A DNA stretch of 64,000 nucleotides. Origin: Bolinopsis microptera (lineage: Eukaryota; Ctenophora; Tentaculata; Lobata; Bolinopsidae). Below are positions 7,933-32,000 of the stretch, piece after piece. The stretch is from assembly GCF_026151205.1 (NCBI RefSeq), contig NC_087076.1, positions 21,446,828-21,510,827 on the forward strand. Reading direction: 5' to 3'. The translations under genes were made by a program, and so were the position numbers. Positions within the stretch are counted from its first letter, which is position 1, and each line of letters opens with the position of its first letter. The notes below the pieces were generated by a model, which saw nothing but the letters and a program-made list of their open reading frames with translations, ran no database searches and was not told the origin of the DNA.

Positions 7933-8022
7933 TTAAACCTTCTCTTCTGCAGTTTCACCACCAGCAGCTACTTCCACGGCTTCTTCCTCATCACCGAGTT
8001 CCACTTTCGCTTCTTGGGAGCC
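7933..8022 (-). CDS. Receptor exon 31: C-terminus and stop
   Basis: It starts in phase 0 after acceptor CTCTGTCAG and encodes 29 residues rich in Glu and Ala (VELGDEEEAVEVAAGGE) ending EEKV, then TAA at 7935-7933. The final EKV could be read as a weak PDZ-ligand-like end; this is speculative. Confidence 0.85.
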   Translation of the reverse strand, partial: GSQEAKVELGDEEEAVEVAAGGETAEEKV

Positions 8023-11000
8023 CTGACAGAGAAATATTGTAGTTATGGTCCGACAAAGAAAGCTACTGCATAATGTGTGCACTATTATGCATTGCTCACT
8101 TTAGCAGAGCTGGGCTTAACTAATTGAACGGTTTTGAAGGTATAACAAATTTGCAGATACACTGCACTTACCATTGATACGTTATCTCCATTAGCTTCCT
8201 TAGCTGGAATGTCGGGTTGCCTGCAAAGACAGGGCGTTAATACTTGATAATGATAATGATACTAAAATCCGGGTTTTGCAACATCATGCGACATTATTGC
8301 GTGGTTACCAGGTGTTCGTGCACATGCGGAAACGACTACAAAACTGTCAAATAAACTTAAGAATTGAATTTGGTACCAAAACTAACAAATACAAACACAA
8401 TATACATTATGATAATATCTATTTTATTTATCAATAATAACTCAGAGAGGAAAAACAGTGCTTTTGCTTCAAAGGGTGCTTTCAGCGTCCATAATATGGC
8501 ATTAAAATATGAGATTCTTTTAACGGCTTCAATTAAACTAATACAACAATGTTTATAGTTATAGTTATACAGCAAATGTAATAAATAAAACTAGATACGG
8601 AAGGTGAATTGATAAGACAAGAGTTTAACATTGTTACAGCGAATGCTACCGGGTCAGTCGAAGTGAGGTTTGTCAAAATGCGGTCGTAAACTGTGATACA
8701 AATAGTTTTCTTATTTCTACCACATTGTTTGAAGATTTATAACCGGGTTTTATTCCTGGAGGCGTTTTCAACTGCACAAACTGTAGGAGAAAGATATCAG
8801 ATGTATCTGTTTAGTCCGCATTTAAACAAAGCCGGTAGCATTGTACAACTACTAGATGCTAACTGTTTTGCTACACAGAAATCAGAAGGAGCTTCTATTT
8901 CGTTTCTCATTTTGTCCCGTTGTACGAAAAATGTGTCAGGTAGAAATTATCAGCAGAACCTGTTTAAGTCAGTGCAATTATCATGCGGGCTTGTTCCTAA
9001 TATTTTGAATTTTCCTACCCCAACCAATTTCAGCAAAAATGCTTCAGGTATATTCTACAGGTTTTAAAAATAAATTTAGACTACAAGTGTGTCGTTGTTC
9101 TTGTGCTGTTTTTCTTACGAGTTGGCCTCCAGATCTGATTCAATTGAACCAGCTTTGTTGCTATCGGTTCCCGATTGAGGCGCATCAATTTTGTCGCCCT
9201 CGGTTTCCGATAGAGGTGACTCAAGTTTGTTGCTATCAGTTTCCGATTGAGGTGAATCAAGTTTGTTGCTATCAGTTTCCGATTGAGGTGACTCAAGTTT
9301 GTTGCTATCAGTTTCCGATTGAGGTGACTCAAGTTTGTCGCTATCAGTTTCTGTATCCTCACCGTCCTTCGCCAAGTTTATATAGATCGCATCTTGCCTG
9401 GTGGTGTCAGTTTCTATACTTTAAATAAAACGTAAAAAACACAGCTCGTTAGATTAAGCAAACACAGTGTTTTATATGGTTTTCTATAAACACAGCAAAT
9501 TGGCGGCACAGCTCGTGTCAATGGCGATTGCGATTGTACATAACATCAAATTTGAAAAGCAGACTCTCTCTATTATATGGTCCATGTGTGTACTATGATG
9601 AGAAGTTCGTGCGGTACGTACTAATAAAAAACCTCGTAAACTTTAAGCCGGTTACGGTATGTACTTCTCATCTTAGTGTGTGTAGCGTGTATGAGAGTAG
9701 TGAGTAACAGGAGCAAGGAGAGGAGAAAATATGATCATTAAACTCAGTGTCATCAGTAATAGCTCGAGAGAGTATAAATGGAAAATCATAAAAGTTTTCA
9801 AAACTTTTGTTCAATTCACTCCAAACTGGTATGTCGGGCATAGTGCTGATTATCACTACTGACAATGAAAAGCTCCACTAGTCACAGATTGAAGGTAAAA
9901 AGTGCGTAAATTAGCAATTTTTCCATGCAGTGTTGTCAAGGAGAAATTGAAGGCGATTAAAATTATGATCGAAAAATATGATCATAAAGACTTTTTTCAT
10001 GCGTTTTTCTGTGAACAAATTTGAGGGCGCCATGCCAGAGAAGGACCGTAATTTTAGCTACTTTTTCAGCAGGATCTGCAACTTACTCATCGGCATTTGC
10101 GTATGGATTCTCAGTGACTATGTCCGTCAGTTCAGCCTCATCTACAGGAGCTTCATCGGCTGGTATCTTTTTATCTTGTTTCCTAGATACAAAACAAACT
10201 AGGCTGTGCACCAAGCCTAGTACAATAAAACCCAGATTTAATGTATATGTAATGCTACCAATATGCTTTATTGTATGCTATGAATACAGACTGCTTATAT
10301 AAGTCTCTGTAGGGAAGCTTTTTTTAGTCGTTTTGTGTACAACCTATTTCCTATGATTCTAATGACAAATCTTATGTGTAATAAGGGTGTATTAAAAATC
10401 TCTTTTTACATTTGAATGAGTCACAGAATAAAGTTCAGCTAAGCCGCCCAATCGGCCTAGCCCTCACTTTGGAGCTCATGATCAGTGTAATTGCAAACTG
10501 AAACTGATTTGCATAAACGTTCTTGTTTTGGTAGACTACTCAGCGGTCAAAATGAAAGTGTCGCCAGCTAATTAGGCAAGCAAATTATTCGAAGCGTCAA
10601 AACGCAGTAGCCGATTAATTTAAATTAGCTAAATCATAAGCAATTTAGCTGCTTAATTAGCTACTTAATTAGCGGCGCCTTACTCCTCGGATTGGTGGGA
10701 CGGCTCCACCCCGTCATCTATTGACCGGGGCGGGTAATAGTTGGGATCCTCTGTAGTTTGATGGAGAGGTACGAGGATGACCTCGTTTTCTTGGTTTGGT
10801 CTGTGAGAGATTGATAGGTAGGGTGGGTGTGTGTGATTTGTAATCAAATGGGCTCAAACACACTAACAAACGGGATAACACGTGGATAAAGATAAGAACA
10901 GCTGATCAGTGGCACCTCTATTTAACGTGTCACCCAGAAAGAAAAAAAACAAGATAAAGATTCAGCGAAGACGAACAAAATATATCAAAGTATCAAGGAT

Positions 11001-14000
11001 TGGCTAAATTAATTTTATCAAATATGAATGTTATGCAAGTTTTTATGACTGATAGGTAGAGAGAGAGAGAGATACTTACTTCTCAGTTTCGTCAGTATCA
11101 CGATAGTACGGATTCCTCCAAGCTTCCCCTCCATCAGCAGCTATCCTGCAGACACAAGACACATGCATTTTGTGGGAAAAGAAGCATTAACCCTGATCTA
11201 CTATTTTACTTTAACACCTTTATTTCTCAATTAGTTATTATTATTTATCTTAATTTAAATCAAGATATAACGAGTTCAAGTGTGTTTTCAAGTAAAATAG
11301 CCGATCTGACATAGCAGAGATTTTCATGCATAGTTCTAGTAGCTAGCACAGTAGTTTAAGGACCATCATGAATAGTCATGAGCAATGAGGCCAGAGCACA
11401 ATAGCATTGGGTACCAATATTGAAAAACTGGGATAATAATTCGCATATCATTCATTACAATCGGAGATATTTCAGAATTTGTTGGTTAAGAGATCAAACT
11501 TAGATCATGCTGTCTGACATTACCAGACTGGAAAACTGTACAACTGACAAGGCGACAGTAATGTTATCACAACATGGGGTTTGTCCTTAAATTGACTACA
11601 ACGATTCTTTAGATCAGTAGGATATGTTTTTACAATTTTCAGAATACTACCTCATATCATAGAATAAACGTGGACTTCATGCGGTATAATGTATATAATG
11701 TATATATACATTATACAATGCATAATGTATAATATATATAAAATGTATATATTCCACAATAGTGAAGAATTTAACTTACTCGTTGTCACGAGGAGAATAT
11801 TTTTGTGAAGTGCCGTTTTCAGTTCCACCGCCACCTCGTCTAAAGGGAATGTGTGTTATAAAACCGTAGCAACCATGGTTAAACCACAAAAGTGTAGTGG
11901 TAAACCAAATTGTGGTAAACAGCCTATTAAATATGGTCAAAAGAGCATCACTGCAGTTTTCACGCGGTTAATCAATATTCATCACTCATCAGGTTTCAAA
12001 ATGTTGAAAATCATGAAATTAGCAATATTCTGATTTCAGTTTCATAATGAAGAATAGTATTTTTACAATTGTCATGCAAACATAGGATTTAAATACGATA
12101 GAACATTCAAACATTAAACATTCAAAGAGAAAGTTTTCAGAATCTTGCCTCCAGAGTAATCATTCAATTAGGCATATTGATACATTATCTAATAGTGGAG
12201 GAATTTTAAAAACTACTGAAATTTAGGTGCTGATTGTGCTTTATCACTAAAGAATACTTGTTCCGCACTGCATCACTTTGAATTGGTGAAAATTGTGATA
12301 CCAAACAAAAAGAAGATAATATCAGTAAAACAAGAGGGGTGCTTTTAAAAATAACCAACAAAAGATCTTAACAGATCAAACATAGTGTGCAGCAATTAGC
12401 ATGCAGTAGAGAAACAAGATCATGTCTCACAAACCAAGCGGGGAGATCATGCACTTAGTACTGGACGTGACGTCCAAAACTTAGTACCTGCCCCCCACCC
12501 CCACTGCTGCAAACAGGTGCTTTAATTGAGAAATGCTGTTGACTTCAAATATTATATGCGATATTTCCACTAGTGAGAGGTCTATAAACGGTTTATCAAG
12601 ATGTTTCAGTACACAATGCCTCTAACATTAAGATGATTTTTAAGATGGAAAGACAATGTGAAGAAAACTGAGTTTATATAGTGATAATCATAATAACTAT
12701 CTTCGTAAGAGCATCGAAAAAAAGGGTAGTTCCGAGAACCACAAGTTTGAGATATGATAAAGAGAGTTCCACGAGCAGTATGAGAACAATTCCTTGTGTC
12801 AGAGGTGCTTTAGATCTTCACATGGTTGGTGAAAGAGAAGAGAGAAAGTACCAGCGACCTACTTCTTAATGATAACCACGATGCACATGATGAGAAGTAG
12901 AACAACTACAATAGCAACTACCACACCGATTATGATATCCTGGAGACCGTCACCTGGATATTTTAGGACATGTTACCACGGTTACCACAGTTACCACGGT
13001 TACCACAGTTACCACGGTTACCACAGTTACCACGGTTACCACGGTTACCACAGTTACCACGGTTACCATGTTTTATTACAGCTTAGTAGTTATACTTGGA
13101 GGGTATGTTATACTGATGGCAGTAGAGCCTCAATAGCATGGTACAGTGGGCGACGGTTACCACAGTTACCATAGTGGGCGACAGTTACCACAGCTACAGT
13201 GGGCGACGGTTACCAACATAAGTACATTTCATATAGATTCCATCATCTACAACATTCGTTGGGATAGACTCTCAAGATGAAACAAACGACTGATCACTAG
13301 AAGCAGAGAAAACAGAAGAGGTAAATTTTTAATAGGTAAAACTCCTCAACATGAACAAATAAACAAGCTGGACGTGACAAACATGCTCAACACGGACGAT
13401 GTAGACAGAAATCCCATTTATAAAAAGTATATTGCGTCTTCACGGGCTGATGAATTACTGGGCAGATACTAGGCTGTTACCTAGCAACACTAGTTACCTA
13501 GCAACACTAGTTACCTAGCAACACTAGTTACCTAGCAACACTAGTTACCTAGCAACACTAGTTACCTAGCAACACTAGTTACCTAGCAACACTAGTTACC
13601 TAGCAACACTAGTTACCTAGCAACACTAGTTACCTAGCAACACTAGTTACCTAGCAACACTAGTTACCTAGCAACACTAGTTACCTAGCAACACTAGTTA
13701 CCTAGCAACACTAGTTACCTAGCAACACTAGTTACCTAGCAACACTAGTTACCTAGCAACACTAGTTACCTAGCAACACTAGTTACCTAGCAACACTAGT
13801 TACCTAGCAACACTAGTTACCTAGCAACACTAGTTACCTAGCAACACTGGGCAGATACTAGGCTGAGCCTTTCATCTAAACCCATAAATCATACCACAAA
13901 GAATAATATATTAGCGGTAAACATAAAGTAACAGCCAGTATCATAGCCGTGAGAAGTGCTTGGTTAACTACATCACTTTTACACCTAGTTACACCTAGTT

Positions 14001-17000
14001 ACACCGAACATCCGCCAACCTTCTCCGTTTTACGACCAGGAGTATGATGATGACGATTATAAGGAGAATGAGGATGACAGCTACGATTATTCCGGCAACC
14101 AGTCCCGTCCTAGATCCATCAGTCACGGCCTCTACATCTGGATCTGTGGGTTACCATGGTTACCATGGTTACCATTCAGTTACATAGTTACCATGTCAGT
14201 TACATGGTCAGTTTAACCTGCTCTGAACCACAGATAGGATCAGTTCAATTTTATTTGATGTTTTTTAATGATCAGATAAGGTATTTAGATTCTGAAAATA
14301 TTGTTAGACGTTCTTCTGCCGCTTGCTTTTTCTTAGAAAAGTAGGAGCCAAAAAAAGCCTTGTTTCAAAGATGATGCCCACTTGACACAGACAAGAGATA
14401 GTGTTACCTAGCTTGTTACCTAGCAACACTAGTTACCTAGTTTGTTACCTAGCAACACTAGTTACCTAGTTTGTTACCTAGCAACATTAGTTACCTAGCT
14501 TGCTAGTCTAAGAGATAATGAAGATGATGGAGCTGAGACCATAGTGCAGTGCACGGCTGTATATTTTCTTTATTTTGCCAACAAATAATTATAAAAAGAG
14601 AATAATTAAATATAATAATAAATTCAATGGAACAGAACGAAACTATTAATACTATATAGTATTAAACTATTTGCGGAGTAAGATATTATGAAGTGTGAAA
14701 TTACTTATGAAGTGAGAAGTGCTCCGCAATACAAGATGTTTCTAATTGAGCCCGGGGATACTGTCTTGTTTCCATGACTCTGTTTCCGTGAATCTTATCT
14801 AAATAATTGACTCAAACAGAAGCAATTAAATTTGAAAAGCGTTAATAATTTAGTCATGCAAGTTTCCGGAGGGAGTACTGATGGTTCCTCCACTACTCAA
14901 ACCATTCATATATCCATTACATTCAACTGTTGCTTGCAAAAGAAGAACCAAATTTCTATTGAATTATCATAACTTATTCATGCTAGAGAAAACTTGAAAA
15001 TAGAATTATCATCTCGATGCACCATGACCAAGAAGTAATTCAAGACCATCCATTCAATATAAGCTATCTGAGCGGCAACCAAACCTGACGCAGCAGACGA
15101 TAATGATTATGATTAGGAGAAGTAAAATTATCACTGCGATAACGATTCCTGCGATAGCACCTCCACTCAGACCGGTAGAGGGTTCAGGTTCAGGTACAGG
15201 TTCTGATTGTAGATTCATTGAGTTCACCAATTACTAATCAAAACTAATTACCAAAGATTGAAAGATAATCAGACATCAATAAATATTTGTAAGAGCGTTT
15301 AACCAGTAATTATTACTGCTATGCAATTATCCAGGAGTTATTCTAATTTATATTATCATGTTATTCTTGGACATGCAGGATTTGAAACAGAAGCAGCGCA
15401 TAATGGCCAAATAGCTGAAATAAAATCGTAGTAGCCATGTTTATGTTATTCTAAATCAAGAAAATTATATCAAAATGTGTCACGTGAGATAAGGTATGAG
15501 GATGTGGTTGAATATGTCATGGCGGTGAGATATAGAGATATGCACTATGCAGCTAGCGAGTAGCCAATTCTGAAGTTAAAGAATGCTACTAGTGTATTAA
15601 TATTGTTACCTAGTTATTAAGTGTTTAAATGTAAGAGTGGGTAGCACCAGCTCACTGTTAAGTGTTAACGTATTTCTGTTATTGTAGCAGATGCTTAGAT
15701 TTGATATTCTACATTCGACTAAAGGCGCTTTACCAAAGGCGTAGTACTACTGAATCGGTTGAGCTGACAGATAGTCAACGTTTTTAAATTTTTGACTGTA
15801 TCGTTTTAATAATTTCATACGTTTCCCGTTGATTTACATTTGATTCCCGCCAATTTACATTTAATTCCCGCCAATTAATTTCGCCATGTCGTAGAGCATT
15901 GTATTAAAGCCAGTAGGGGTACTCTTGAAGCAAGATTCTGTTAACTCTGTGCACTACTCACTCCTTATTCCTCTTATATATCAATATGAGAATGATGCCC
16001 ACTATAATTAGCACTGCTAGTATTCCCAGCACGATCCCGACTACTACGTCTGATTCCTGTGTGTTGGTCGCCGCTTCTATCTCTACGGTGGTGGGTGTTA
16101 GTTCCGGTGGTGGGTGTTAGTTCCGGTGGTGGGTTTTAGTTCCGGTGGTGGGTGTAAGTTCCGGTGGTGAGTGTTAGTGGTGGGTTTTAGTGGTGGGTGT
16201 TAGTTCCGGTCCTCCTTTCTGTATTTTGTTAGTGCTGCCGTCGCTACATTATGAAAAGTCAAACAGGAAAATTGCCCTGCCTGTGCATGCATGCTCTAAA
16301 AATCAAAACGCGAAAAACTTTAATCTTTCAGGCTCTATGTACGGTTTGAATCAGTAAAATTCCACTGAAGGGGTGCTCAAAAATGGCAATTTCAACAAAA
16401 AAAAGACAATTTCAACAGAAGAGGGAAAAATTCAGCCTTTTTGTGGTATTACTATTGGTGTCTAAGGTTAGTTTTGAAGTAGTTTTTAATTTGAACATTA
16501 AAGAAGACTGGCAGGATATTAAACGGGCCGGGCCTCCAATAACAATTCGCGCATATCAATAAAAATGGTTATTCGAATAGATTCAAAAGCTCTTTCTAGT
16601 GGTTGACGAAAAACTATCAGAGGAAATTTGTAAGACGTGGTTGTCACTCACTGTTAAACACCAACATCCAATGGATGAAGGTTGCAGACCCTATAAACAC
16701 CGGTCCATATCGGAAAATTAAGAGACCCACTAAGGCCAAAAATGAATCAAGCCCAATGATGGTGGTTGAAGTTGAAAGAAATGTGTTGAAGGTATGAGAT
16801 TAGGGATGAAACATACCTGGAACCTCCACACATTCAATGTAATCGCCCCATCCTGCGGCAAGGCAAAAGACAGAGGTAGTGGTAGCGTTTCCTAGCAGTT
16901 CAGTTACACTGTCAACTATGTTAACAACAAGGTCACCCTGGAGCGTGGGAGCTTTTTATTGTCAAACAACCTAAGACTAAATATGTACACGAACACCGGA

Positions 17001-20000
17001 GTTTGTGATATATTGTCTATCAAATTGTCTGTACTGAAGTATTGAAGAGAAAGGCTGTGGAAGGATAAAATTTAATATAAATTTCGGGATATCAAGTATT
17101 CTGGAGAGGTGAATCAAGTCTTACCGGACAGGTGAGCGTGAAAGGCACGTTACTATCTGGAGACAAAAAGTCTGAGACGACTTGTTCGCTACCTTCCAAA
17201 CTCACGGTTACTCCCGCGTCCGTCAAAGTAGATTTACTACAGGCATCTGGAGAGGGAGGTTTTAAGGTTACAAAATAATAAAATGGAAGGAAATAATAAT
17301 AAAATGGACATAATGAGTTGGAGTTTCGGTTTCAAACAGAAGGGTGTAAGCAGTTATTTAACAAGGTAGGGAAGAATTAAAACGTTGCCAAGGAGAACTA
17401 AAAATCAAAAAGTTATGCGTTGGCAGAGAAGGTGGCTAAGTACTGTAGTGTGAGTAAAATCTCTATAATATGGAAATATTAAAGTGATGATCAACAATCA
17501 AAAAAACTTACAAGTTGTAAATTCAACTTCAACAGGATCACTTGTCAGTACTGTCTCCGTTTCGCCAACATTTCCCTCGGAGGTCATTGAAATTTTGTAG
17601 ACAACATTTGATTCTAGACCTGTAAATTCATGAATAACTGGTGTAACATCACGCTTTCTTCGTGAAGGTAGGTTATCAGCCCCACCTTCGCCGCTGGTAT
17701 CATCCTCACTTTCGCTGCTGGTATCATCCTCACTTTCGCTGCTGGTATCATCCTCACTTTCGCTGCTGGTATCATCCTCACTTTCGCTGCTGGTATCATC
17801 CTCACTTTCGCTGCTGGTATCATCCTCACTTTCGCTGCTGGTATCATCCTCACTTTCGCTGCTGGTATCATCTGGTACAACCGGCTCAGGGTAAACATAC
17901 TCCATCACAACTGTCCATACTTCGGCAACCTTTTTGGATACCTTTAAGCGGTAAGTGAAACCTTCTTCTGGCATGAATTCCACTGTAGCAGTATTGTCAG
18001 TCAACACTATTTTTGAGGAATCTATTGGTGTTGGGAGTGTTGGTCCTGAGAGAAATTGTTCGTTTAATTTCGTATCAAAAGACTTATTTTATGGTGATTT
18101 TGGTGCCAATGACAAAACTTTATTCCTAGTAGTGGCATAATACAAGATACAACAAGAATTGTGCTACGTAACACCATTTATCCTCACCTTGAGTGAAAGA
18201 GTGTGTGGCTGTCTCGGAGGGTGTATCATCATCAGTCAGGACCGTGACAGTGAAAGTGTACTCTGTGAGTGGAGTAAGATCATCGTACGATATGGTAACT
18301 TCCTTAGCAGCACCAAAATCTTTCTCTTCAATAACTTCGGCCTTGCTACTCAGAGTATACTGAAATTGTTATGATTGTCCTGATCTTTTTATACGTGAAT
18401 AGCCAGGCTTGAGTTTGATGCAGAGAAGACTGTGGTGAAAGTTCAACAAAGTTGGTAAAGGGGGCAGGGGGGTCTTCATAATAAATACGAATCAAGACTT
18501 ACCTTGACTTTGGTGTTGCCTCCTGGACTGGTATCGGCTAACTTGATTGTCACATCGCGGGCGGTTGAGGAAACTTCAACGTCCGTGATGGTCGCAGAAG
18601 CGTGACCTAAAAACAGTTCCTCAGTTTAACCACAAATTTACATTAACTCCAAACGTGTTCCGACATATCGGATAAATATTTTGCATACATAATGACATGT
18701 ACGCAAGCTTATGAGACTATTACTCTATTTAAAAGTGTTAAACAAAAGTATTTTTTAAATGTAGAATTTAAAAAATTATAATATACACTATACAGTGCGA
18801 ATAAGTACACATTTTTTATTAACCTCTAAATATTGTACTCCTATTTAAAACTTTGAAAAACATAAAATTACCAGTGTTGAATTCTTTGGTCATATCTCCG
18901 CCGGGTCCTTTCTCAGTGCTGGAAGATATCACAACAACATAGCTCTTGAGAGGCTCTAGGACACTGCTCCAATCGTATTCGGTCTGGCTTACAAGATCGG
19001 CTATATCTAAAACAATGTTTTATTAAGTTGGGTACGATGGAGGAGAATCTTGATGGAGAATGGACATTAGTTAAGGATACTATTAAAGAAGTGTCTATGG
19101 AGGTACTGGGTGAGCGCCCCCGGCGCAGAAAGCAGCAGCATTTGTCTCAGGAGACAAAACGCCTTATTGCAGAACGCAGTAAGATTAAACAGATGGCACC
19201 TAGTGACAACAACAATAGGAGCGAATATTCTCGGGCCAACAAACTTGTCAAAAAGAGCTGCAGGAAAGACGACGAGAATTGGGCTCTTAGAGTTGCAGCA
19301 GATCTGGAAACAGCTGCTGTCCATGGCCGGCAAAGGGAAGTCTGGCAACGGATAAAAACACTGTCCGGTAAGAAGAATCGAAAATCAACTGCTGTAAGAG
19401 ATAAATCTGGGAAGTTGATTGCTGATCCCTCTGCTCAGAGAGAGAGATGGGGAGAACATTTTTCGGAGCTATTAAACCCTCCTCCCACGAATGCGGATCT
19501 GTCTGACCTGGACCATCTTGAAGTGGTTCCATGCTTTCCTTATCTTGGTGATGGTGATGGTCCCCCCACTAGACTTGAGATTTTAAACTGTCTCAAAAAA
19601 TTGAAGAACCACAAAAGTGCTGGGATTGACGAAATCTCTAATGAGCAGTTAAAGTATGGGGCAAGTGGTCTTGTGGATAGGATGGAGAAATTGTTCTCTA
19701 AAGTTTGGAATTCAGAAGCAGTGCCTGACGACTGGTTGAAAGGCATTGTGATAATTGTGCCAAAGAAGGGTGATACCTCTCATTGCTCCAATAATAGGGG
19801 GATCACTCTAAGATCTACAGCATCTAAACTGTATCAAATCATCATATTACAACGCATGAGTGACGGTTTAGAAAGTTTGCTACGAGACAATCAGTGTGGG
19901 TTTAGAAAGAACAGATCATGCATTGATCAGATTTATTCACTCCGCACTACTATACATAACTGCATTGAATATAATCTCCCCCTGTATGTTAATTTTGTGG

Positions 20001-23000
20001 ACTTCAAGGCAGCTTTTGATTCTATCGACAGGAATTATATTTGGAAAGCTTTCAGTCATTATGGCCTGCCATGTAAATACATTCGAATAATACAGGCATT
20101 CTTTAATGGAACTGTCAGTGCTGTTAGACACAATGGTGAACTATCAGAATGGTTTGAAGTAAGTTCAGGCAGTGGCCAAGGAGACATTCAGGGTCCCCCA
20201 CTTTTTAATGTCTGCCTCAATGTGGCTGCTGAGAGAACAGAAAGCAACAAAGTGGTGTCCCACGGAGCGGTTCTTCAAAGATCTATCAGTCCGCTTGTTG
20301 ATGATATCACTGTGTTAGATACAGACTATGCAGATGACATGGCTGTACTGGATAACAGCGAGGAAGGTCTTCAAGAAACAACTGACCTTTTGTGTATGTA
20401 TGGTGCCCAGGGAGGTCTCAGAATCAATGGTAAAAAGACTGAGGCTATGGTCATTGGTAAAGCAACCTCTCAACGGCCATACACGAAAGAAGCCACAGTG
20501 AACATCACTGTTGAAGACACGCCAGTGCAGCAAGTTAGTGACTTTACGTACTTAGGTACAATTATTTCCAGCGACGGTACTATCGACCGTGAGCTGTCAG
20601 CTAGGATTCAGAAAGCTTCCGGAGCCTTCAATCAACTGAGTAATATATGGAAAAACCGCAACATCCAGTCTTATACAAAGATCAGGATTTATAAGGCAGC
20701 GGTTTTGACAATATTGTTATATGGTAGTGAGGTTTGGAACACAACCAACAAGCAGCTACATCGCTTTGAGGTGTTCCATCAGCGTTGCTTGAGGAGAATA
20801 CTTAGGATAAGATGGCTCGATCGGGTTAGAAACACTGAAGTGCTGGAGCGTGCAAAGATAAATCCAGTAGAGACGTTCATAGGAGCAAACCGCCTGCGTT
20901 GGTTTGGCCATGTCACCAGAATGCCAGACACTAGGCTTCCTAAGTACCTGCTTAACTGGACCCCTGCACATGGGAGAAGATCTAGGGGCCGTCCAAGAAA
21001 GAACTGGAGGAAATGTTTGCTGGAAGATGCTGCAGCGTTTACAGGAAACACTGACATAGACCTAGAAGGAGCGAGCGAGATGGCTAGTGACCGCAAACTT
21101 TGGAGGGAGATGATACGTCACAAACGGGGTTCATTGGTGCAGGCCACTCGAATGATTGAGGAGACCTAATCAAGTACAAGTAAGTACGATGGAGTTATCT
21201 TTGTAATTGTATGGTGCAAACTGTTGGGAACAGTCCACGTTACAATCGCGCAATTCTTCTATATAAACTGGAAGCCAGTTCTAGAAACGAATATTAAGTT
21301 ATTTTTTAGGTTATTTTAGTTAACTCTGGAGATAAGTTTCTTAAATCATAATTTTAATGATGACAAATATCAACAACAGCTCAGATGTATAGCTGTTTAG
21401 TAACGTTTATTTCTCAAACATGGAGATTATGATTCACAGTTACACAAATTAACTTACTCTTAGCATCGTAAGCTTGTTTCTCTTCACCATCCTTCTCACT
21501 TATCTTCATTGCATACACTGGTACGTATGAGCCGATTACAGTGATTTCTCCAATATCAGCAGGCAAAGTGTCTTTGAAAATCATAGTTACAGTTTTAGCG
21601 CCGACAACACTAATCGTGACGTCACCTGAAGAAATGACAAAAATTAGGAAGTTACGAATCAAATACATGTACAGTAAATAATAGCACTAGACGGCAACAC
21701 TGTTAATAATAGCGGCTGTTAACTAGTCATACAACACATCGTGAGTTTTATCGAAATAGATGATATGTGAGTACATATTATATAGCAAATACCTGCGTCC
21801 AAGGGCGGAGGTCCAACATAAAATCCGGTAACGTCATTTTTAGTCAGATAAACTGCTTCTTGTCTTGGATATATGATATGATAGACATGCAGTGAGAAAC
21901 CATGTTTTAATTTGGCTTTCCAATCAGCATCAGAAGTAGATAGAGTGTACGGGCAATCGTAAGTATCGGAGTCTGCGTTGATAGTAGTAATGGTGCAAAT
22001 TATATCACCAGCACTGTCCGCAACTTGCACTTCGTATATCTTCCAATCATCAAATCTGAATTGGTTATAAAGTTAAAATTCGGTTGAGGGAAGCGAAGAA
22101 ACTTTTTCCAAACCTTTTGAAGATTACAAAATGAAGCAATGAACATGACTCATGAATACGGATGTGTTGTTTTGCATTCAATGATACACGGTGTTTTGAA
22201 ACAGCTGATTCCGTGATTCGTACCCGATTGGGCGCTGTCTCACAACAAAATACTTCGGGTCCCCAGTCGTAGTTAAGTCTGTAGTCAAGCACAGATTTTA
22301 TTTTGTTGAAACTGATGGTATCTAAAAAAGGTATCCTATAGACTTACGTATCTCTGTCTGAAGGCAATACCACAGAAGCTGTAAAGGTGTACGATCCGGT
22401 TGACGCTGTTGGTGCACCCAACTTTGGGACAGCTGAAGTAATTTAATTTGTTACTGACGCAGAGATTATACTAGGCCGTTTACAAAAAACTTTAGACTTG
22501 ATAATGGCCCATGGTAAAACTATCCATAAAAATGGTATCTTAGTCCCCGGATCTTGGCTAGTCGGAGAGCTGGAACGAAGAAATCGGAGACAGTGCAGTA
22601 CGTACTTTTCAATTTGAAGAAATTATCAGGAAAAAAGCAGAGAAAAATAAACACGTCGTGACTGTACACAGTTAGGTTTTGGAAATGAGACATGTGTTGC
22701 GTGTTTCAGAATATTTTGTATTGTTATGATTGCATTTATTTTAAGATGGCGGGGAGTATTTTCTTCGGCGAGAAAAATTCTTCAATTCTGTTCAATTTAG
22801 TTTAACTTTCGTTTGATTTTCTCTTTGGAAGTATAAATATCTAAATTCAGTTATCCGTAATGAGACATGTTTTGAAAAAGTTGGGACCGGAACTGGACAT
22901 CATTAGTCTCTGTGTCCCACTTGTTTTAAATTCGTACACTTACCAAGGCACCAATCTTTGCCAGCATGTGTTCCTGCCTCCATCAATTCTACTTTTGTAT

Positions 23001-26000
23001 TATCGTCAGGATCTGTCTTACACTCAGCATAAGACCCAATTGCTCTTTTGGTAACATCGAAAGCCATGACATAGTCGTCACTAGAACAAGTAATTACCAC
23101 CTGTTCACCCAAGGCAACTTTGGTTCCGGTCTGACTTCCTGCGGCGCTAACGATGGTGTTGGCGTTAGGGTTGGGAATCTCAGTTACCTGAAAAGAGGGA
23201 GAATTACTTTTCAAAATGTTTTGTCTTAAATCCATCTCCAAGATATTATTTTCACCTAACAACTATCACGCTGATACATTTAAGAATTGCATAGTGCATG
23301 TAACCATATCGGTTCGAAGTTTGTCGGTAAAACTTGATTTAGTGCAGATCAGACTTGACAGACTCGAAATCTTTTACCAAATTTGAAATAGAATTAAAGT
23401 TAATGAGATGGCTATTTTAAAAGTCACTTGCAACGTAACCATGGTAACAATGGTAACAGTGTTTTCCTTTGTACCGAATATAAACCTAAACAGTAAAATT
23501 GTGTTACAATCAACGCTACTAAACCACTAACCGAACACGAAGGGTAGCATTTCTTTAAAACTATATCATCTCCGTTTGTTCCACATTCAGCCTCAAATAT
23601 GTTCCCTGTAGTTCCTTCCACTGTCATCGTTAGATCTTTACATTGGAATTGCACCTGGTAATTATCTCGTCACATGAGAGAGTACAACTAGAAAAGATCA
23701 CTTTGAATAAATCATCGACAATTGCACAATGTTTAATGTTTATACATTGAATCATGCACGCGTAAAAATCAAAATGAGCAAATCCTTGTAGAAATAATGT
23801 ACGATAAGAGCGTCCCTTTGTTATTTCTCAAGATTATTTCATGGATGTAAATTTAGAATGTGAACTTAGCCTTTTCACTAATGTCGAAAGGTAAATAACC
23901 AAAGCTTTTACAATTCGAGTTCAGGCAACTTATAACCGTGATCAATAGTGAAAAGAGTGCTCGGCCTTGTTCAAGAAAACCAACCCTCGGTTTGTCAAGG
24001 CTCAGAGTACAATTTTGAGTTATTACCTTCTTTGACATAGGTTTAAAATCCTACCATTCTACCCTCCTACCGGCCTCTTGGTCGAAATGAACGGTTATAC
24101 GATTTAACTTACTTTCTCTCCCGGATTAATCAACATGCGATTGTATATAGTCCGCGGGTTGCCAATCAGGAATGTTGCAACTAAAGAATAGTCCAATCCG
24201 ATAAGAGAGCAAGGTTCTGAAAGATAAAAGTAACATGCGACATGCAGCTAAACATGCAGAGATATTTTTTCAACAGCGAAGCTTGCCTTTGTGTTGGGAG
24301 GTATGGAAGTGGCTTCGGGTGCTAATGCGGCAAAAGTAGTATCGCCACCATTGTCTTCGACTTTAAGGAAGTCGAAGAACTGGTCGAGTTCACTTTTGAC
24401 TGGTAATTGGCACATGTCTGAAAAAAATATTAGATAGTTCATCATCTATTTAGGAATCCTAAAACTTTGTTTAAAAGTACTGAATCTTTCCCACTACCCA
24501 GGATGTACGTTTGCCGACATACATCTATACATGCATTTTTTGTCAATATGACCCGTACAACTATATTATAGACAGTATGTCTATACACATTTATAATAAC
24601 CTTTAATCCAGTACAGACACGAACTCAAAAATTATATTTTAATGGGTGGGAGATGCATACCTCGAAACATGACACATTTTAATAACCATATACATCCCCC
24701 GTCGATCTCTGACATCGTATAATCTATATATAAATTTACAACAGCGCCCAGCGGACAAATTATGTTGGACTAAATAGTCCGACGACAATCGTTACCTTGG
24801 TTACGACTCATAACCATGGTCACTGGTCAGGTGTCACCTTTATATTGCTATTGCTATGAGGTTTATATGTGAAGTTATTAGAAATATTTAAACTTTGTTT
24901 TAGTAGAAGTGTCTTATTTGCTTCTTAAACAGCAAACATGCTCTTTAACTCTGGAACTATCTGCAATCTTATTATCATAGTCTGTTTTACTTTTCCGAAT
25001 TTTCCTTGTTTCCCATTTCAAGGCTGTTTTAAGGCCGTTATATTTTTCACTCCATATTTTTCGTCCTTATACTCTAATTATCATCCGCCTAACATTATGT
25101 TCAAAAATCAAAACAAAATGCACATTACTTACTGTAACACTTTATGAGGTCTTTGAATTTAGCATCATTATTAAAGTCGTATTTCGATGCGTCACAAAAG
25201 AATTTGGTGTTTGCCTCAACGTTCTCGGTAAACAGAAACACTCCTTGTTTGCAACCACTAAGGAATAGTGGTGTGTTCAGCGCAACCTCCTCTTCATTTA
25301 AGGCAGCCCGAAACCCGCTACCGATCTTAGCGTATTCGACGTTATATTCTGTCTTGATGGTTGACTGCGAAAATGAGGTTTGAAAAAGTTGGGTTACGGC
25401 TATAAACCGATCGGATAGTTCAATCTTTACTAAATCCCAAAAATGGGATAGAGTGGACCGAGCCGAGGTCCAAGGATCGACCGGAACCATTTTTTACGGA
25501 ACCCGTAAAAGGAATGATTTAAAATTAAGTTAAACTAGTGTTCCCAAATGGCACCGAGGATAACACCGCGGTCGCTCGCCTGACACAGGAACAAATAAAA
25601 GACGATGGTACAATCGCAGAGAAGTAAATGTGGTGCATGTAATGTTCATGAATAGAGGAGTTGAACGGCTTACGGCTTAAACAGTGACTATCAAAATAAA
25701 ATCGTCTGATTAAAAAATTATCAGAAACGTATTAACTTACAATATCACAAGGAGCGTGGCACGATTGAACGACAATTGCACTTGGTGATGCTCCATCGTC
25801 CACCTCTTCACATTCGATTTCATCCTCTTGCCCATACGGTAAATGATAATCGCCATTTTCGCACCCAAGTTCATATTCTTCGTCTTGAGGGACCGACAAT
25901 ATTGTTGTAATTTCATTATCAAATTTGAACAATATTCCATGATCTTCAAGCACCGTCAGCGGGCAGTCCTCTGAAAGAAATAAAAGTTATTGGTCTATAT

Positions 26001-29000
26001 TCTATAATACTGGTAATAGTCTTTAAATTTATGGGTTTATGCATTTGAAAATATCGTAAGCACGGAGTAGTCTAAAAACAATCTTTTTGATCGGAACGAA
26101 GAATTACTCTTTTATCTAAGAGCAAATTTGGAAAATGCAAACAGATCAGACTCAGAGTAAAATTGTCGAAAAAATCGTACTCAGGTGTGCTATTCTTTCT
26201 GATAGGCCCCTAGCAATGCACGATTTAAACAGCCTGATTCTCTGTAGGTTGAAAAGTTACAAGATCAATTATCCGTTTGTGGAAATTGGATGTTATTTGA
26301 GCCGATATGGAAGGTTAGGGTAACAATGATGACTAAACATTTTTTGTTGATATAAAATATTTGTCAAAGCACGAAAAATAGTATGTCCGAATAGTACATA
26401 ATCAACGGGTCTTGAAGCTTATCTGTTAGAATAAGTCCCCGTTATGTCATCAGAAGTTACAATCTCTTCTCCTTTCTTTGAGAAAATTCCCACTCTAGTT
26501 CGCACTTTGCAGTTTTTAATTATGACAAAAGCGGAAGTCCTAAGTTCAGGGGTAATGCAAACTTCTTCAATTCCACCTCCACTACTCATTAATTCTTACC
26601 ATCATTTTAAAGGCAATGGATAGAAATAATTAAAGTAACGTACCTCTACACTCTGTGATGTCGCCGATCCCTGATATGGTTGCACTGGTAGTGCCACTAC
26701 TATAAATGCAATCCAGCTCTTGTGTGTTTCTGAACTCGGATTTGACTTTGTCTACAAATGAAGTTCCAGTGTCACATTGGTAGTTGATTTTTTGACCTAC
26801 CAATGCCGTTGCAGTCAAAAAGGATGCCTTTGCGTCGGCTTCCAGTGTCACTCCAGATGTGTCACATTCTGAAAACAATAGAAATAACAAAAAATAGAAT
26901 AAGGTCAAGATAAAATTTACAGTTAACAGCTGGCTATTTGTTTGCGTTAAGTGGAAGGCATGGACTGTTTAAGGCGAGCTCACATATACTTGTAGACATG
27001 TTCAACGATTTATCCTAATTTCATCAAGATAGCTTCGTCAGAACACGATGAACTAACACCTGGTTTAGTCTCTTGGTGGTAAAATGTTAGGGAAGCTATC
27101 CATAACCATAACCACAGCCCTAACCCTAACGAGTTCGTGTTTTACCACTACTAGCCTGCTGCCTGTCACGTGACGAAAACAGTTGTTTGCCCATAACTAT
27201 CCAGGGAAGCATTTTTATTCTAAGTCATGAGGGTGATTCGGAATCAGCGTCCAAAAATCCACTGAATTAGATAATGGTTATACCTTAAGAGCCTTTTCAC
27301 AAGACTTTTCTTAAAATTTGGGCGAGCGATTTAGTGGGAGCGAGCATATTTACCATTCCAAAGCTAAACACACCGTAGCACTTATATGGTATGATACTTA
27401 ACCGTTCATCACCAGGATATATAACCAGTGTACCGTAGTGTGTTTTGTCGAAGCTGTGTTGCAAAACGTCGACATTTTAATCGTCATTACATTGACAGTA
27501 GTCAAATCATACTGTCAACTTTTCGCTGTTTCCAAAACCTTTCAGGAAAAAAGAAAGTCGTAGAAGGCAATAACTTAATAAGAACTTACGATAACACTTT
27601 TTGTCACTGTAATTTGTTACAGCGCCACTACATTTAATAGCCTCAAATGCGGTGGTACCATCATCACGTCCATACCCTGGTTTGCATTCCAACTGAAAAG
27701 AAATTCAAATCATTAATTTGCATTTAATCAAATGTTAAATCTTATCCCAATTCCAGACCTTAATTCGAGGTGTCTATCTGCAGATGTAGGGGTGACGGGG
27801 GTCTCTCTGCAGATGGCACCCCTATCAGGCGGGTACAGTTTCATCCAATGTTTATGTTGGACTGTCCAGTTGGAAGATTCTATTTCACTAATTTAACTAA
27901 TAAAATGACCATTCATAAATTATGTGATAAATTAAAACTCACGTTTATTTCTGTACCAGCGGGATAGAACGTCTCTGTTTCAAAATCGAGATCCATCACC
28001 ACGGTATCGTCAATGGTTGGTTTTGTACACGCGGCTGAAAAATTGCGTTCGTTCAACATTACAGAATGAGAAACCACCAATCGTTTGGACACATGCACAT
28101 TTGAAACTCGAATTAATATAAAATTACACGTGATGCCCATATTAGGTGATGAAATGGTTAGGCACGGCGGTTGGATTTTTCAGATAACTCACCTTCACAT
28201 TTTACGAGGTTATACATAGCCATGATATCAGTGGTTTGAGCAACGTCCTGTATACAATTAAAGCTGACACTCGTGAAATCCCCAAAATCTGAAAAGTCCG
28301 TAAGGCTGTCGTCTTTTCTTAACATATACCTGGAACAATTTACAGCTATTTAATCGAATAATATAAATTGTGATTTTCTCATTTTATCCGAAACCCACAG
28401 TAGCTTTACTTAATTGTTTTAACTAGCAAGATCCCGTTTAGATCTAAAGTCAAGAGACAACAGTATTTATAAGTTTACGATTATAAAACCACTTGGGGTC
28501 AAAATGTGGGGACTTCTTATTACTTGGTCAATTTTTTAGTTCTTCGTACTGTTCAAAAGGCCATAAAAGCATTCGACCCAGTCAAAAAAGTTCAATTTTC
28601 AATTGAGCCGCTAAGGTCATCCCTCTTTTATATTTATGTTATCTAAGTTATCAAGTAAGTATGTTATCAATCATGTCACATGTGATATGGTGAGTGCTGA
28701 AATCTGCCATTTGTTGGCTGTAAATCAGATTTTCACCATTTTTGTGTCAAACCAAAAATAAGTAAACCAGAGATACAACTGTCGACAGACTTATTTGAGC
28801 GTAATATTTACTTACATTGTATTTTGATTCGAGTCTTGTTTACATTTAAACGTAACTGCCTGCCCCAAGTATATTCTGTCGTAAGAGTCGTAGTTACCAG
28901 GAACTATTGCCCTTCCATCTATTATCGTTTTGGTAAAAGGGTTGTCTGCAAGATCCTTTGCACTGTTGCCCTCCAGTTTGCAGCCTGAAGGTTGCAATTT

Positions 29001-32000
29001 AAGTAACATATAAAAAGGAGTCTTAATAACGATTCTTGTACTATACAAAATATGTACTAGACAAATGGATTAAAATCCCATAACACACAACCCTTTGCTC
29101 GATAAATCACAATTAAGGTGTGAAGTTGGCAAGCACTTACTTGATGTTTGAGCTGCAACACATCTGCTACTGTCACTGACCCAACAACAATGTATAAGGT
29201 TGCACTTGGATTCCTCTGTTACAGGGTCTGCATGGGCCGGCATTAAACAATCAATAGTGTTTATCCCACTCCTATCAGCAGGGCACTTTTCATCTCCCGA
29301 TGAGGCATCGGATGCATATTGGTCTGAAATAAAGGGAATATTTATAAAAGCAATTAAATCACGGGTAATGAAGAATTAACCACAATGCAATCATTAAAAA
29401 CCACGTTAACTATATAGTCGTATATTGTGCATTCAGTTTCGCAAATGCGAGCAGTTACGAAAATATATAAATTTGAGTAGAAGGTGATAACTAGATGATT
29501 TCCAATTTACAGTAGAGAACGAGAAAGTAAAGTGCTCTCATCTCGTCAGACTCTCGCTACCCAAACTCTTTCATTGTTTTCCTTCGCTATAGAATGAATT
29601 CTAATTTAAGCGAAATTGAAACTGAAACTGAAATTGAAACTGAAACTGAAACTGAAACCCCTTTCAAGGAGCTCGTATGGAGTTAGAAGTAAGAATCATA
29701 CAGCTACACATAACACCGGTAACAAGTCAGAGTGAGATGTGATGAGAGTGGGAATAGAAACATACACTCCCACCAAGTGCAGTGACTTGCATAATCACTG
29801 GAGTTACCATGACAACACTTCCTGCATTCCCTAAACAGTAATGTCCCATTTAAAAAGTTTCTCATAAATTATGTAAGCAAGAAATGGTATTATACAAACA
29901 CACAACACTTAAATTTATAGAGCAGCATATAACTATAAGGAAAAGTCTTGATTATGAATACAAGAGTAACCCAACTACGCAACCAGAGCGAGTGTAACCT
30001 GGATCAGCTCTAAAGCAACTGCAGTCAATAATGGTACTCTCATGAAAACATACTAGGACGATATCCACTAATCAGCACGTCTGCTGGCAAGGGTACCCCT
30101 CGTTTTATTGTACATCAGATACCGATGAATTAGTCTGTTAATCAACCTACTGAAGCAACGTTACCCCTTGGCTTACCCCTACACTTCTTGTTATTTTGTA
30201 CTAAATAATATGCACGTACTCTGTGCTGTACACATTTCTGTAGGACATTTCAACCGACAAGAAGTAATCGCAAGCAGACCATGTGACCACGTGACCACGT
30301 GGTCACGTGACCACGAAGCAAGGACCCCGTTTGGAAGGCAGGCATTAGGAGAACGTGTGTAAAAATAGTTCCGTTTTTGTGTTATGTCACAGTGAACAAC
30401 AACAGGTAGCACAACTACAAAAGACACGTGCAAAAGACACGTGCAAAACAACACTCTCAGATCCAGACACGTGCAAAACAACACTCTCAGATCCAGACAC
30501 GTGCAAAACAACACTCTCAGGGACCCACTCAACAATGGGATATCTATAGCTCTCCAGACTGGTGGACACACTTAACTACTACTACTACTATGTCGGAGCT
30601 AAGTCCGATCTACGCCAGAAAACCCCCTCCATATATCCCTGTCCCGCATCAGGGTTCGCAGTTCCTCTTTAGAGTTTGTCCCAACTTCCTTCAGTAACAT
30701 AGACAAGTAGCTTTGTCTTGGTCGGCCTTGCTGTGCTCTACCGTGCGTAGGTTCCCATAAGACTAAATCACTGGCAAGTAGCTCAGGATGTCGGATGCAG
30801 TGTCCCGCCATTTTTAATCTCCTGCTTCGTAACTTGTTTGACAGCCTTGGGAGGCTACCATACAAAGTTATATTGCTGACCTTGTCCTTCCATGAGATAC
30901 CCAGCACCATACGCAACATCTTTGTGTATGTCCCGTCCAAACTTTTCTCTTGAGCCTTTGTCAGTGTCCAGGTTTCTGATCCGTAGAGCAGTACTGATTC
31001 ACAAGCCGCTATGAACAATCTAATCTTTAGGCTCTTTGAGAGTTTGGATTTCCAGATATCCTTCAGTCTATGTAGGGCACCCCACGCTTTTCCCTTTCTA
31101 ACCCCTATCTCCCTATCTGTGCTCTCAATCCAGGAGCCTAAGTAGATGAAATCATCTACATTTTCTATGGCTTCCCCGGATCGACTTTGTAGGTCGCTAG
31201 ATCGATCCTCCATATTCAGTGTCATGACCTTGGTCTTGCCTTCGTTTATGTGTAGTCCCACGCTTGCTGCCGCCGATTCTACTCTGAGCAGGAACTCGTT
31301 AGCCTTGTCCATGTCCTCAGATATAAGTGCTATATCATCTGCAAAGTCCACATCGGTGATGATCTTGGGCCCCACTCTTCTGCTTTTTCTACGTTCGAGG
31401 GTGAGTCCAAGTCGCTCCGCATCATCGCCTATGGCTTGCCTCATACAGTAGTCGATGACTATTGCAAAGAGGTAAGGTGCTAAGGTATCACCCTGTAACA
31501 CACCTGCAAGTATCTCGAACAATTCAGTTTCTCCGTCTGGAGTTAGGACTTTGGCCATTGTCTTCTCGTACATGAGCCGTATAAGCTGCACGATTTTGTC
31601 TGGAATGCCGTAAGCTTCTAGAATCTTTAGCATTTTCCCACGATGTACACTGTCGAAAGCCTTCTTAAAGTCTATAAATGTCAGAACAGCTGGCAGTTTC
31701 CGACTCTTGACACCCTCTATAAGACGTCTCAGTACCAATATCTGTTGAGTTGTTGACCTTCCTGGTCTGAATCCATTCTGGTTTCTACGCAGAATTGTCT
31801 CGATTTCTGGCTTCAACCGGTTTAGAACCATCTTGTTTAGAGACTTGGCAACTAGGGATGACAAGCTTATTCCCCGATAGTTCATTGGTTCGCTAAGGTC
31901 GCCCTTCTTTGGAATTGGTATGATGTTGGCAGTTGACCATTGGTCTGGTTTCTCACCTTTCAATAGAGCATTGTTACAGAAGTCTAAGACAATTTGATCA

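Follow-up and report, generated by a model that had tools for sequence, protein, structure and literature searches.

Four candidate alternative transmembrane exons in a single-pass receptor gene of Bolinopsis microptera

Introduction

The 64,000-nucleotide stretch of the Bolinopsis microptera genome analyzed here (the window) contains a receptor gene of this ctenophore, LOC134814785, in which four tandem exons, called A to D, each encode a transmembrane (TM) anchor. We describe these exons, the reading frame that connects them to the rest of the gene, and the proteins in which they are found, and we then consider how one receptor might come to have four alternative anchors.

Results

A large receptor gene on the minus strand

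LOC134814785 lies on the minus strand, between about 50775 and 7933, and all of its features described below are on that strand. Our protein search returned the gene's own products, RefSeq isoforms X4 (P0001, 1625 amino acids) and X16 (P0002, 1574 amino acids), which fall in clusters of 14 and 2 sequences, respectively, that may include other loci. An isoform numbered X16 implies that the gene has 16 models or more. By tblastn of P0001 against the window, the 5' coding exons, which begin with MKTWTLVLLLIG and include an N-terminal domain, lie at 50775-50602, 50464-49919 and 49396-49223. The remaining ectodomain exons occupy 16817..29323 in a spliced model matched by P0001 and P0002, and encode Sushi-like Cys-rich repeats, FN3-like domains and a membrane-proximal domain; the Pfam matches of the ectodomain to Sushi and fn3 are weak. 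One FN3-like domain contains a DDTSSESE tract, encoded by an in-frame 24-bp repeat (17674-17872) and followed by a furin-like RRKR site; in relatives the tract is shorter or missing. The ectodomain leads up to exon 24 (16937-16817), which ends in phase 1.

The predicted model used in the fold search has a mean predicted local distance difference test (pLDDT) score of 65.7, with the tail and stalk poorly predicted, and the top Foldseek rows were T-cell receptor chains and other immunoglobulin (Ig)- and FN3-type proteins, at query template-modeling scores of 0.24 or less. A second fold search returned FN3 domains, and the last-but-one domain of a relative, P0005, is predicted to adopt an FN3 fold; the membrane-proximal domain was barely covered by the fold search. 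A sequence search of the PDB found nothing meaningful, and Pfam detected no Ig families at an E value of 0.1 or better in P0001, in the paralogue product P0003 or in the relative P0004.

Four TM exons lie in tandem between exons 24 and 26

Between the constant exons 24 and 26 is a tandem array of four exons, each with its own acceptor and donor: A (EIEAATNTQESDVVVGIVLGILAVLIIVGIILILIYKRNKE, 16082-15962, 121 nt), B (EPVPEPEPSTGLSGGAIAGIVIAVIILLLLIIIIIVCCVR, 15202-15085, 118 nt), C (DPDVEAVTDGSRTGLVAGIIVAVILILLIIVIIILLVVKRRR, 14143-14020, 124 nt) and D (GDGLQDIIIGVVVAIVVVLLLIMCIVVIIKK, 12953-12863, 91 nt), the last with a short stalk. Exon A is found exactly in X4 and exon D exactly in X16; C has an orthologous TM segment in P0005; B is known from the DNA sequence only. 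An earlier sequence-only reading of this DNA had described four such exons, entering in phase 1, leaving in phase 2 and encoding a hydrophobic helix with a stalk before it and basic residues after it, and every element of that description was confirmed. All four are preceded by AG and followed by GT, their lengths are all 3n+1, and their best 19-residue Kyte-Doolittle means range from 3.61 to 4.11. The pyrimidine content of their acceptors is ordinary. Only one further TM candidate was detected in the intron between exons 24 and 26, at 12815; it has a peak of 2.42 and no phase 1-to-2 form.

We estimated how often such segments occur by chance by counting stop-free AG..GT segments of 80-150 nt that run from phase 1 to phase 2 and have a 19-residue core of at least 3.0. 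The exon 24-26 intron (4,976 bases) contains four. No such segment occurred in 300 dinucleotide shuffles, nor in a control of 302,800 bases comprising the remaining window and nine fetched loci on both strands; the single TM candidate of one paralogous locus (locus A, below) has no phase 1-to-2 form and so lies outside the control count. When the core was relaxed to 2.5, the shuffles gave a mean of 0.07 (maximum 2) and the control gave 11, equivalent to 0.18 per stretch of this size. Because neither shuffles nor control yielded a single segment at the stricter core, we conclude that the four TM segments are not a product of chance.

Scored against shuffled TM segments, exons B and C are identical at 18 of 38 positions (z 5.4); the z score is 4.5 for A and C, 2.9 for A and D, and no more than 1.7 for A-B, B-D and C-D. 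By this measure B and C are clearly related, A and C probably so and A and D weakly, and the other pairs are indistinguishable from composition. Tandem duplication is likely to have produced at least A, B and C.

Tandem repeats of GGTAACC, CTAGGTAAC and GAACTAACACCCACCACCG types (13476-13848, 14403-14502, 12972-13068, 14149-14205 and 16086-16204) are also present in the introns surrounding the TM exons. These arrays stop about 6 nt or less from the acceptors of A and C, and about 20 nt before that of D; the 17-bp kind is dispersed across the genome. The idea that the TM exons are themselves pieces of a transposon was rejected: in a genome search with 12700-16620, among the 40 of 136 candidates that were scored, the non-self matches were to the intronic tandem repeats and not to the TM exons.

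The reading frame admits exactly one anchor

Exon 24 leaves in phase 1, at 16817, and exon 26 begins in phase 2. Exon 26 (RGGGGTENGTSQKYSPRDN, 11780..11839), the first shared cytoplasmic exon, is 60 nt long, has phase 2 at both ends, and appears as RGGGGGTENG[A/T]SQKYSPRDNE in P0004 and P0005. We linked exon 24 to a single anchor and continued into exon 26, every possible selection from tail exons 27-30, and then exons 31 and 32; the frame remained open to the exon 32 stop in all 64 combinations. With zero, two, three or four anchors and the tail 26-31-32, it was open in none of 12. The four anchors together add 454 nt, which is again 3n+1, yet internal stops close the frame. A product with no anchor exon is unanchored, and products with two or more terminate no more than nine residues past the end of the first anchor exon. 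The frame of LOC134814785 is therefore kept by exactly one of A to D, as had been proposed from the phases.

The same gene contains a second either/or choice, in the ectodomain. Exon 9a (24417-24287; 131 nt; GC-AG donor) is used in X4 and found exactly in P0001, and exon 9b (24216-24113; 104 nt) is used in X16 and found exactly in P0002. Both are 3n+2 in length and run from phase 1 to phase 0, and inclusion of both or of neither leads to an early stop. We also observed that the window and two of the paralogous loci, A and B, encode the same 34 residues in exon 9b, and that 9a has diverged; neither exon was found in the fetched stretch of paralogue locus C.

The cytoplasmic tail varies in a different way. 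Four optional exons have phase 2 at both ends: exon 27 (IAADGGEAWRNPYYRDTDETE, 11080..11145, 66 nt), exon 28 (10684..10800, 117 nt), exon 29 (ending in ELTDIVTENPYANAD, 10087..10182, 96 nt) and exon 30 (DAIYINLA and a 12-residue repeat, 9119..9418, 300 nt). Exon 29 is in X4 and not X16, and the other three are in neither. Both isoforms end with exon 31 (QPDIPAKEANGDNVSM, 8172..8220, phase 2 to 0) and the last coding exon, 32 (GSQEAKVELGDEEEAVEVAAGGETAEEKV and the stop, 7933..8022). In genome searches, exons 27-30 (E values up to 1) and exons 26, 31 and 32 (up to 10) matched LOC134814785 only. Thus in this gene the either/or exons (A-D and 9a/9b), with lengths of 3n+1 or 3n+2, break the frame, and the optional tail exons, with lengths of 3n, do not. 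The proposal that each anchor would be combined with the same ecto- and endodomains has to be abandoned: both vary by splicing, through the 9a/9b pair and four frame-neutral tail cassettes that had been overlooked. The modules allow 4 x 2 x 16 = 128 products, of which few are seen.

Anchors A, C and D are each joined to the shared tail

The 3' part of X4 consists exactly of exons 23-24-A-26-29-31-32, and that of X16 exactly of 23-24-D-26-31-32, showing that two anchors are used in the RefSeq models of a single gene. Alternative isoforms in RefSeq are usually based on RNA-seq alignments.

Two further records extend this result. P0004, from a Joint Genome Institute (JGI) sample, is a protein of 1567 amino acids encoded on a 6,130-base contig; it is 43% identical to the query of our search over 91% of the query, and has a closely similar N terminus (MKTWTLVL) and the same C-terminal tail. 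Since 6,130 bases hold the whole uninterrupted frame, the contig must be derived from cDNA if its gene has introns like those of LOC134814785. P0005, also from a JGI sample, is a protein of 321 amino acids with the same tail; its alignment with P0004 spans 384 columns at 50% identity. Both proteins probably come from other ctenophores. Scored in the same way against shuffled segments, D is by far the closest of the four to the anchor of P0004 (17 of 31 identical, z 7.9; z 2.0 to 3.3 for A, B and C), and C is the closest to that of P0005 (27 of 42 identical, z 7.8), ahead of B (5.8), D (2.6) and A (1.2). A genome-wide search with P0005 found exon C at an E value of 2e-6, and exon B at only 0.35. 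This one-to-one orthology argues that C and D are distinct exons, joined to the same tail, that already existed before B. microptera diverged from the organisms behind P0004 and P0005.

All four protein records of this type that we examined have one anchor each, A, D, D-type and C-type, together with the shared tail. The expectation that the anchors are used one at a time thus has good support for A, C and D (X4, X16, P0004 and P0005); B falls outside it, and exclusivity has to be judged on the frame and on the single anchor of each model, as discussed below. Another record, P0006 (ENA, 166 amino acids), contains only the exon 26 peptide, followed by an unrelated reading.

Paralogous loci share the ectodomain without the anchor array

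Three further loci on the same contig (G000:C5, at 21.58 Mb, 22.70 Mb and 23.43 Mb), which we call paralogue loci A, B and C in no set order, contain the ectodomain exons and introns; the DNA of the main aligned pieces is about 82-98% identical. Their homology to the window ends near 16624-16601 (locus B), at 16608 (locus C) and at 17111 (locus A), in each case before the TM exons. Neither TM exons A-D nor exon 26 were found by blastn (E value 1e-3) in 30 kb of each locus. P0003, the product of LOC134815191, has an anchor that matches the single TM candidate of locus A: one TM segment of a different kind, followed by a short, different tail. In the fetched stretches of the other two loci there is no TM candidate above 2.9, and these two paralogues may be soluble forms or dead copies. 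LOC134815191 and the two further duplicates thus resemble LOC134814785 in their ectodomain exons and introns, but none was found to have a four-anchor array.

These comparisons also showed that a stretch of about 2.1 kb in the window (19043-21184), with a short repeated sequence at its flanks, is missing from all three paralogous loci; it is probably an insertion in an intron.

A complementary intronic pair near exon A

With tandem repeats masked, the strongest long-range complementary pair of the region consists of two 29-nt arms. Arm 1 (15948-15920) begins at the 14th base of the intron that follows exon A, and arm 2 (12158-12130) lies in the intron before exon 26; the predicted duplex has an energy of -33.5 kcal/mol. 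The pair scored 46.0; among 60 shuffles the highest score was 45.0 and the median 33.5. A 20-base pattern common to both arms has just two occurrences in the 264.65-Mb genome, one in each arm, the pattern having been chosen after the arms were seen. Upstream docking-type pairing was not above 12 shuffles each for any of the four TM exons, and other pairings, two of which touch exon A, were at chance level.

Discussion

Four anchors for one receptor

We consider it very probable that exons A to D are a cluster of four alternative, mutually exclusive TM exons in a single-pass receptor gene, LOC134814785 of B. microptera. The splicing machinery would pick one of the four for each message; messages with no anchor, or with two or more, would lose the membrane or the tail, and would either be degraded, perhaps by nonsense-mediated decay, or persist as minor soluble or tail-less forms. 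The choice of anchor would alter the length of the stalk (about 12-15 residues in A, B and C, and about 6 in D), as well as the packing of the helix and the juxtamembrane residues, YKRNKE in A, VCCVR in B, VKRRR in C and IIKK in D. In this way, and irrespective of which of 9a and 9b and which optional tail exons are used, it could control how the receptor is sorted, clustered or cleaved.

How one anchor might be chosen is suggested by the intronic arms. Pairing between them would loop out B to D and bring A to exon 26, favoring the use of A. The arrangement resembles the Dscam1 clusters of exons 4, 6 and 9, which use pairing between docking-site and selector RNA, in that tandem alternative exons are accompanied by a long intronic pair in a downstream-docking layout (according to the sections available of PMC8042237); it differs from docking/selector clusters in that only exon A has a complementary pair. 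We regard the arm pair as a lead to the mechanism of anchor choice, not as its demonstration.

Several observations weigh against a set of four functional alternatives. Exon B is in none of the protein records examined, and an unrelated stretch of another contig (G000:C9:13896069-13896212) matches the TM part of P0005 better than exon B does (E value 0.0015, 42% identity). Whereas most other exons have a GTAAGT-like donor, B (gtttgg) and C (gttggc) have weaker ones, and D has little sequence in common with A, B and C. Downstream pairing for B, C and D was not above 12 shuffles each, leaving A as the only exon with a candidate pair. Finally, the use of A and D is documented by RefSeq isoforms that are predicted models, and mutual exclusivity is deduced from the logic of the frame and from one anchor per model.

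Some of these points would also be explained if A, C and D were real alternatives and B a decayed or unused duplicate of C, a possibility that we think doubtful but take seriously. The absence of B from the protein records examined, its weak donor and its kinship to C would all fit. B nevertheless retains an acceptor, an open frame, the right phase and a hydrophobic core, and no stop arises where its basic end meets exon 26; the donor of C is equally poor, yet C has an orthologue in P0005.

It is unlikely, though conceivable, that some of the TM exons double as alternative last exons and so produce membrane-anchored receptors without a tail. If left unspliced, A and D run into a stop at the donor itself (after KRNKE and IIKK, respectively), and B and C do so after 9 and 7 further codons; there are AATAAA motifs at 14574, 14255 and 13077, and products of double inclusion also stop just past the first anchor. 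However, AT-rich introns should often contain AATAAA and ATTAAA, and in four of the four protein records examined an A-, C- or D-type TM segment is spliced to the shared tail.

The suggestion that what is read as a single gene consists of tandem paralogues, or the remains of gene duplicates, with a common tail is very improbable, despite the three ectodomain duplicates on the same chromosome which show that the region does duplicate, because the DNA between the TM exons matches no ectodomain exon (window 1-32000 compared, with the three 5' blocks near 50 kb outside it) and the array was not found in the fetched stretches of the duplicates, which lose homology ahead of the TM exons; in the RefSeq models, moreover, A and D share both their ectodomain and their tail.

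Relation to known receptors

Exchange of the anchor while the binding part is kept is, to our knowledge, known chiefly from arthropod Dscam1, which has two anchors. The sequence-only reading had called alternative anchors in a receptor unusual; so they are, although Dscam1 is a precedent. As described in the available portions of PMC6851185, PMC3364881 and PMC1397879, Dscam1 of fly, mosquito, honeybee and shrimp has two tandem, mutually exclusive TM exons (17.1/17.2; 32.1/32.2 in Penaeus monodon). The excerpted text of PMC2566808 reports that the two TM forms of Drosophila Dscam1 go to dendrites or axons. LOC134814785 is like Dscam1 in having tandem TM exons of a single-pass receptor, FN3 domains ahead of the membrane and optional tail exons (same portions of PMC6851185, PMC3364881 and PMC1397879). 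It is unlike Dscam1 in having four TM exons rather than two. Dscam, moreover, is an arthropod member of the Ig superfamily with ten Ig domains, whereas the ectodomain of the ctenophore receptor resembles Sushi and FN3 domains and matches no Ig family in Pfam. We infer that it had an origin separate from that of Dscam1.

Among the listed matches of our open-access literature searches we recognized no report of four TM exons, or of alternative TM exons in ctenophores; one may exist elsewhere. In the parts available, PMC8527503 refers to mutually exclusive exons only as a step in splitting annotations, the word 'splicing' does not occur in PMC11797021, and PMC11184263 names the Bolinopsis genome once.

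If the four anchors are real, their presence in an unrelated ctenophore receptor would mean that diversification by anchor swapping evolved on more than one occasion, and early in the history of animals. LOC134814785 would then offer a clean test of the effects of anchor and stalk alone, and of how one exon of four is chosen, and it may bear on receptor sorting in the comb-jelly nervous system, which is built differently from ours. Another group considered for comparison, the invertebrate allorecognition receptors such as Hydractinia Alr and Botryllus fester, is characterized by polymorphic ligand-binding ectodomains with a proven role in allorecognition.

More broadly, ctenophores, as early-branching animals, may have independently evolved a combinatorial, splice-coded receptor, with two ectodomain choices, four anchors and up to 16 tails giving 128 proteins, in which the frame marks either/or against optional exons and an anchor set that is old within the group sends the same receptor to different membranes or states. 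We see this wider model as evenly poised between right and wrong.

Other features of the window

An Rfam scan of the window found nothing that reached a gathering score. The large intron of the receptor gene, between 49223 and 29323, contains a 13-kb satellite (33993-46894) of about 534 copies of a 24-bp unit, with 88% matches and a strong GC skew. The same intron has an open frame of 988 codons (30602-33565, minus strand) that by eye resembles an endonuclease/reverse-transcriptase retrotransposon. Downstream, on the same strand, a further gene contains two Ig-like frames, at 286-663 and 843-1160, that look nearly identical by eye; the second has an Ig_3 match at an E value of 5e-5, under the family cut-off.

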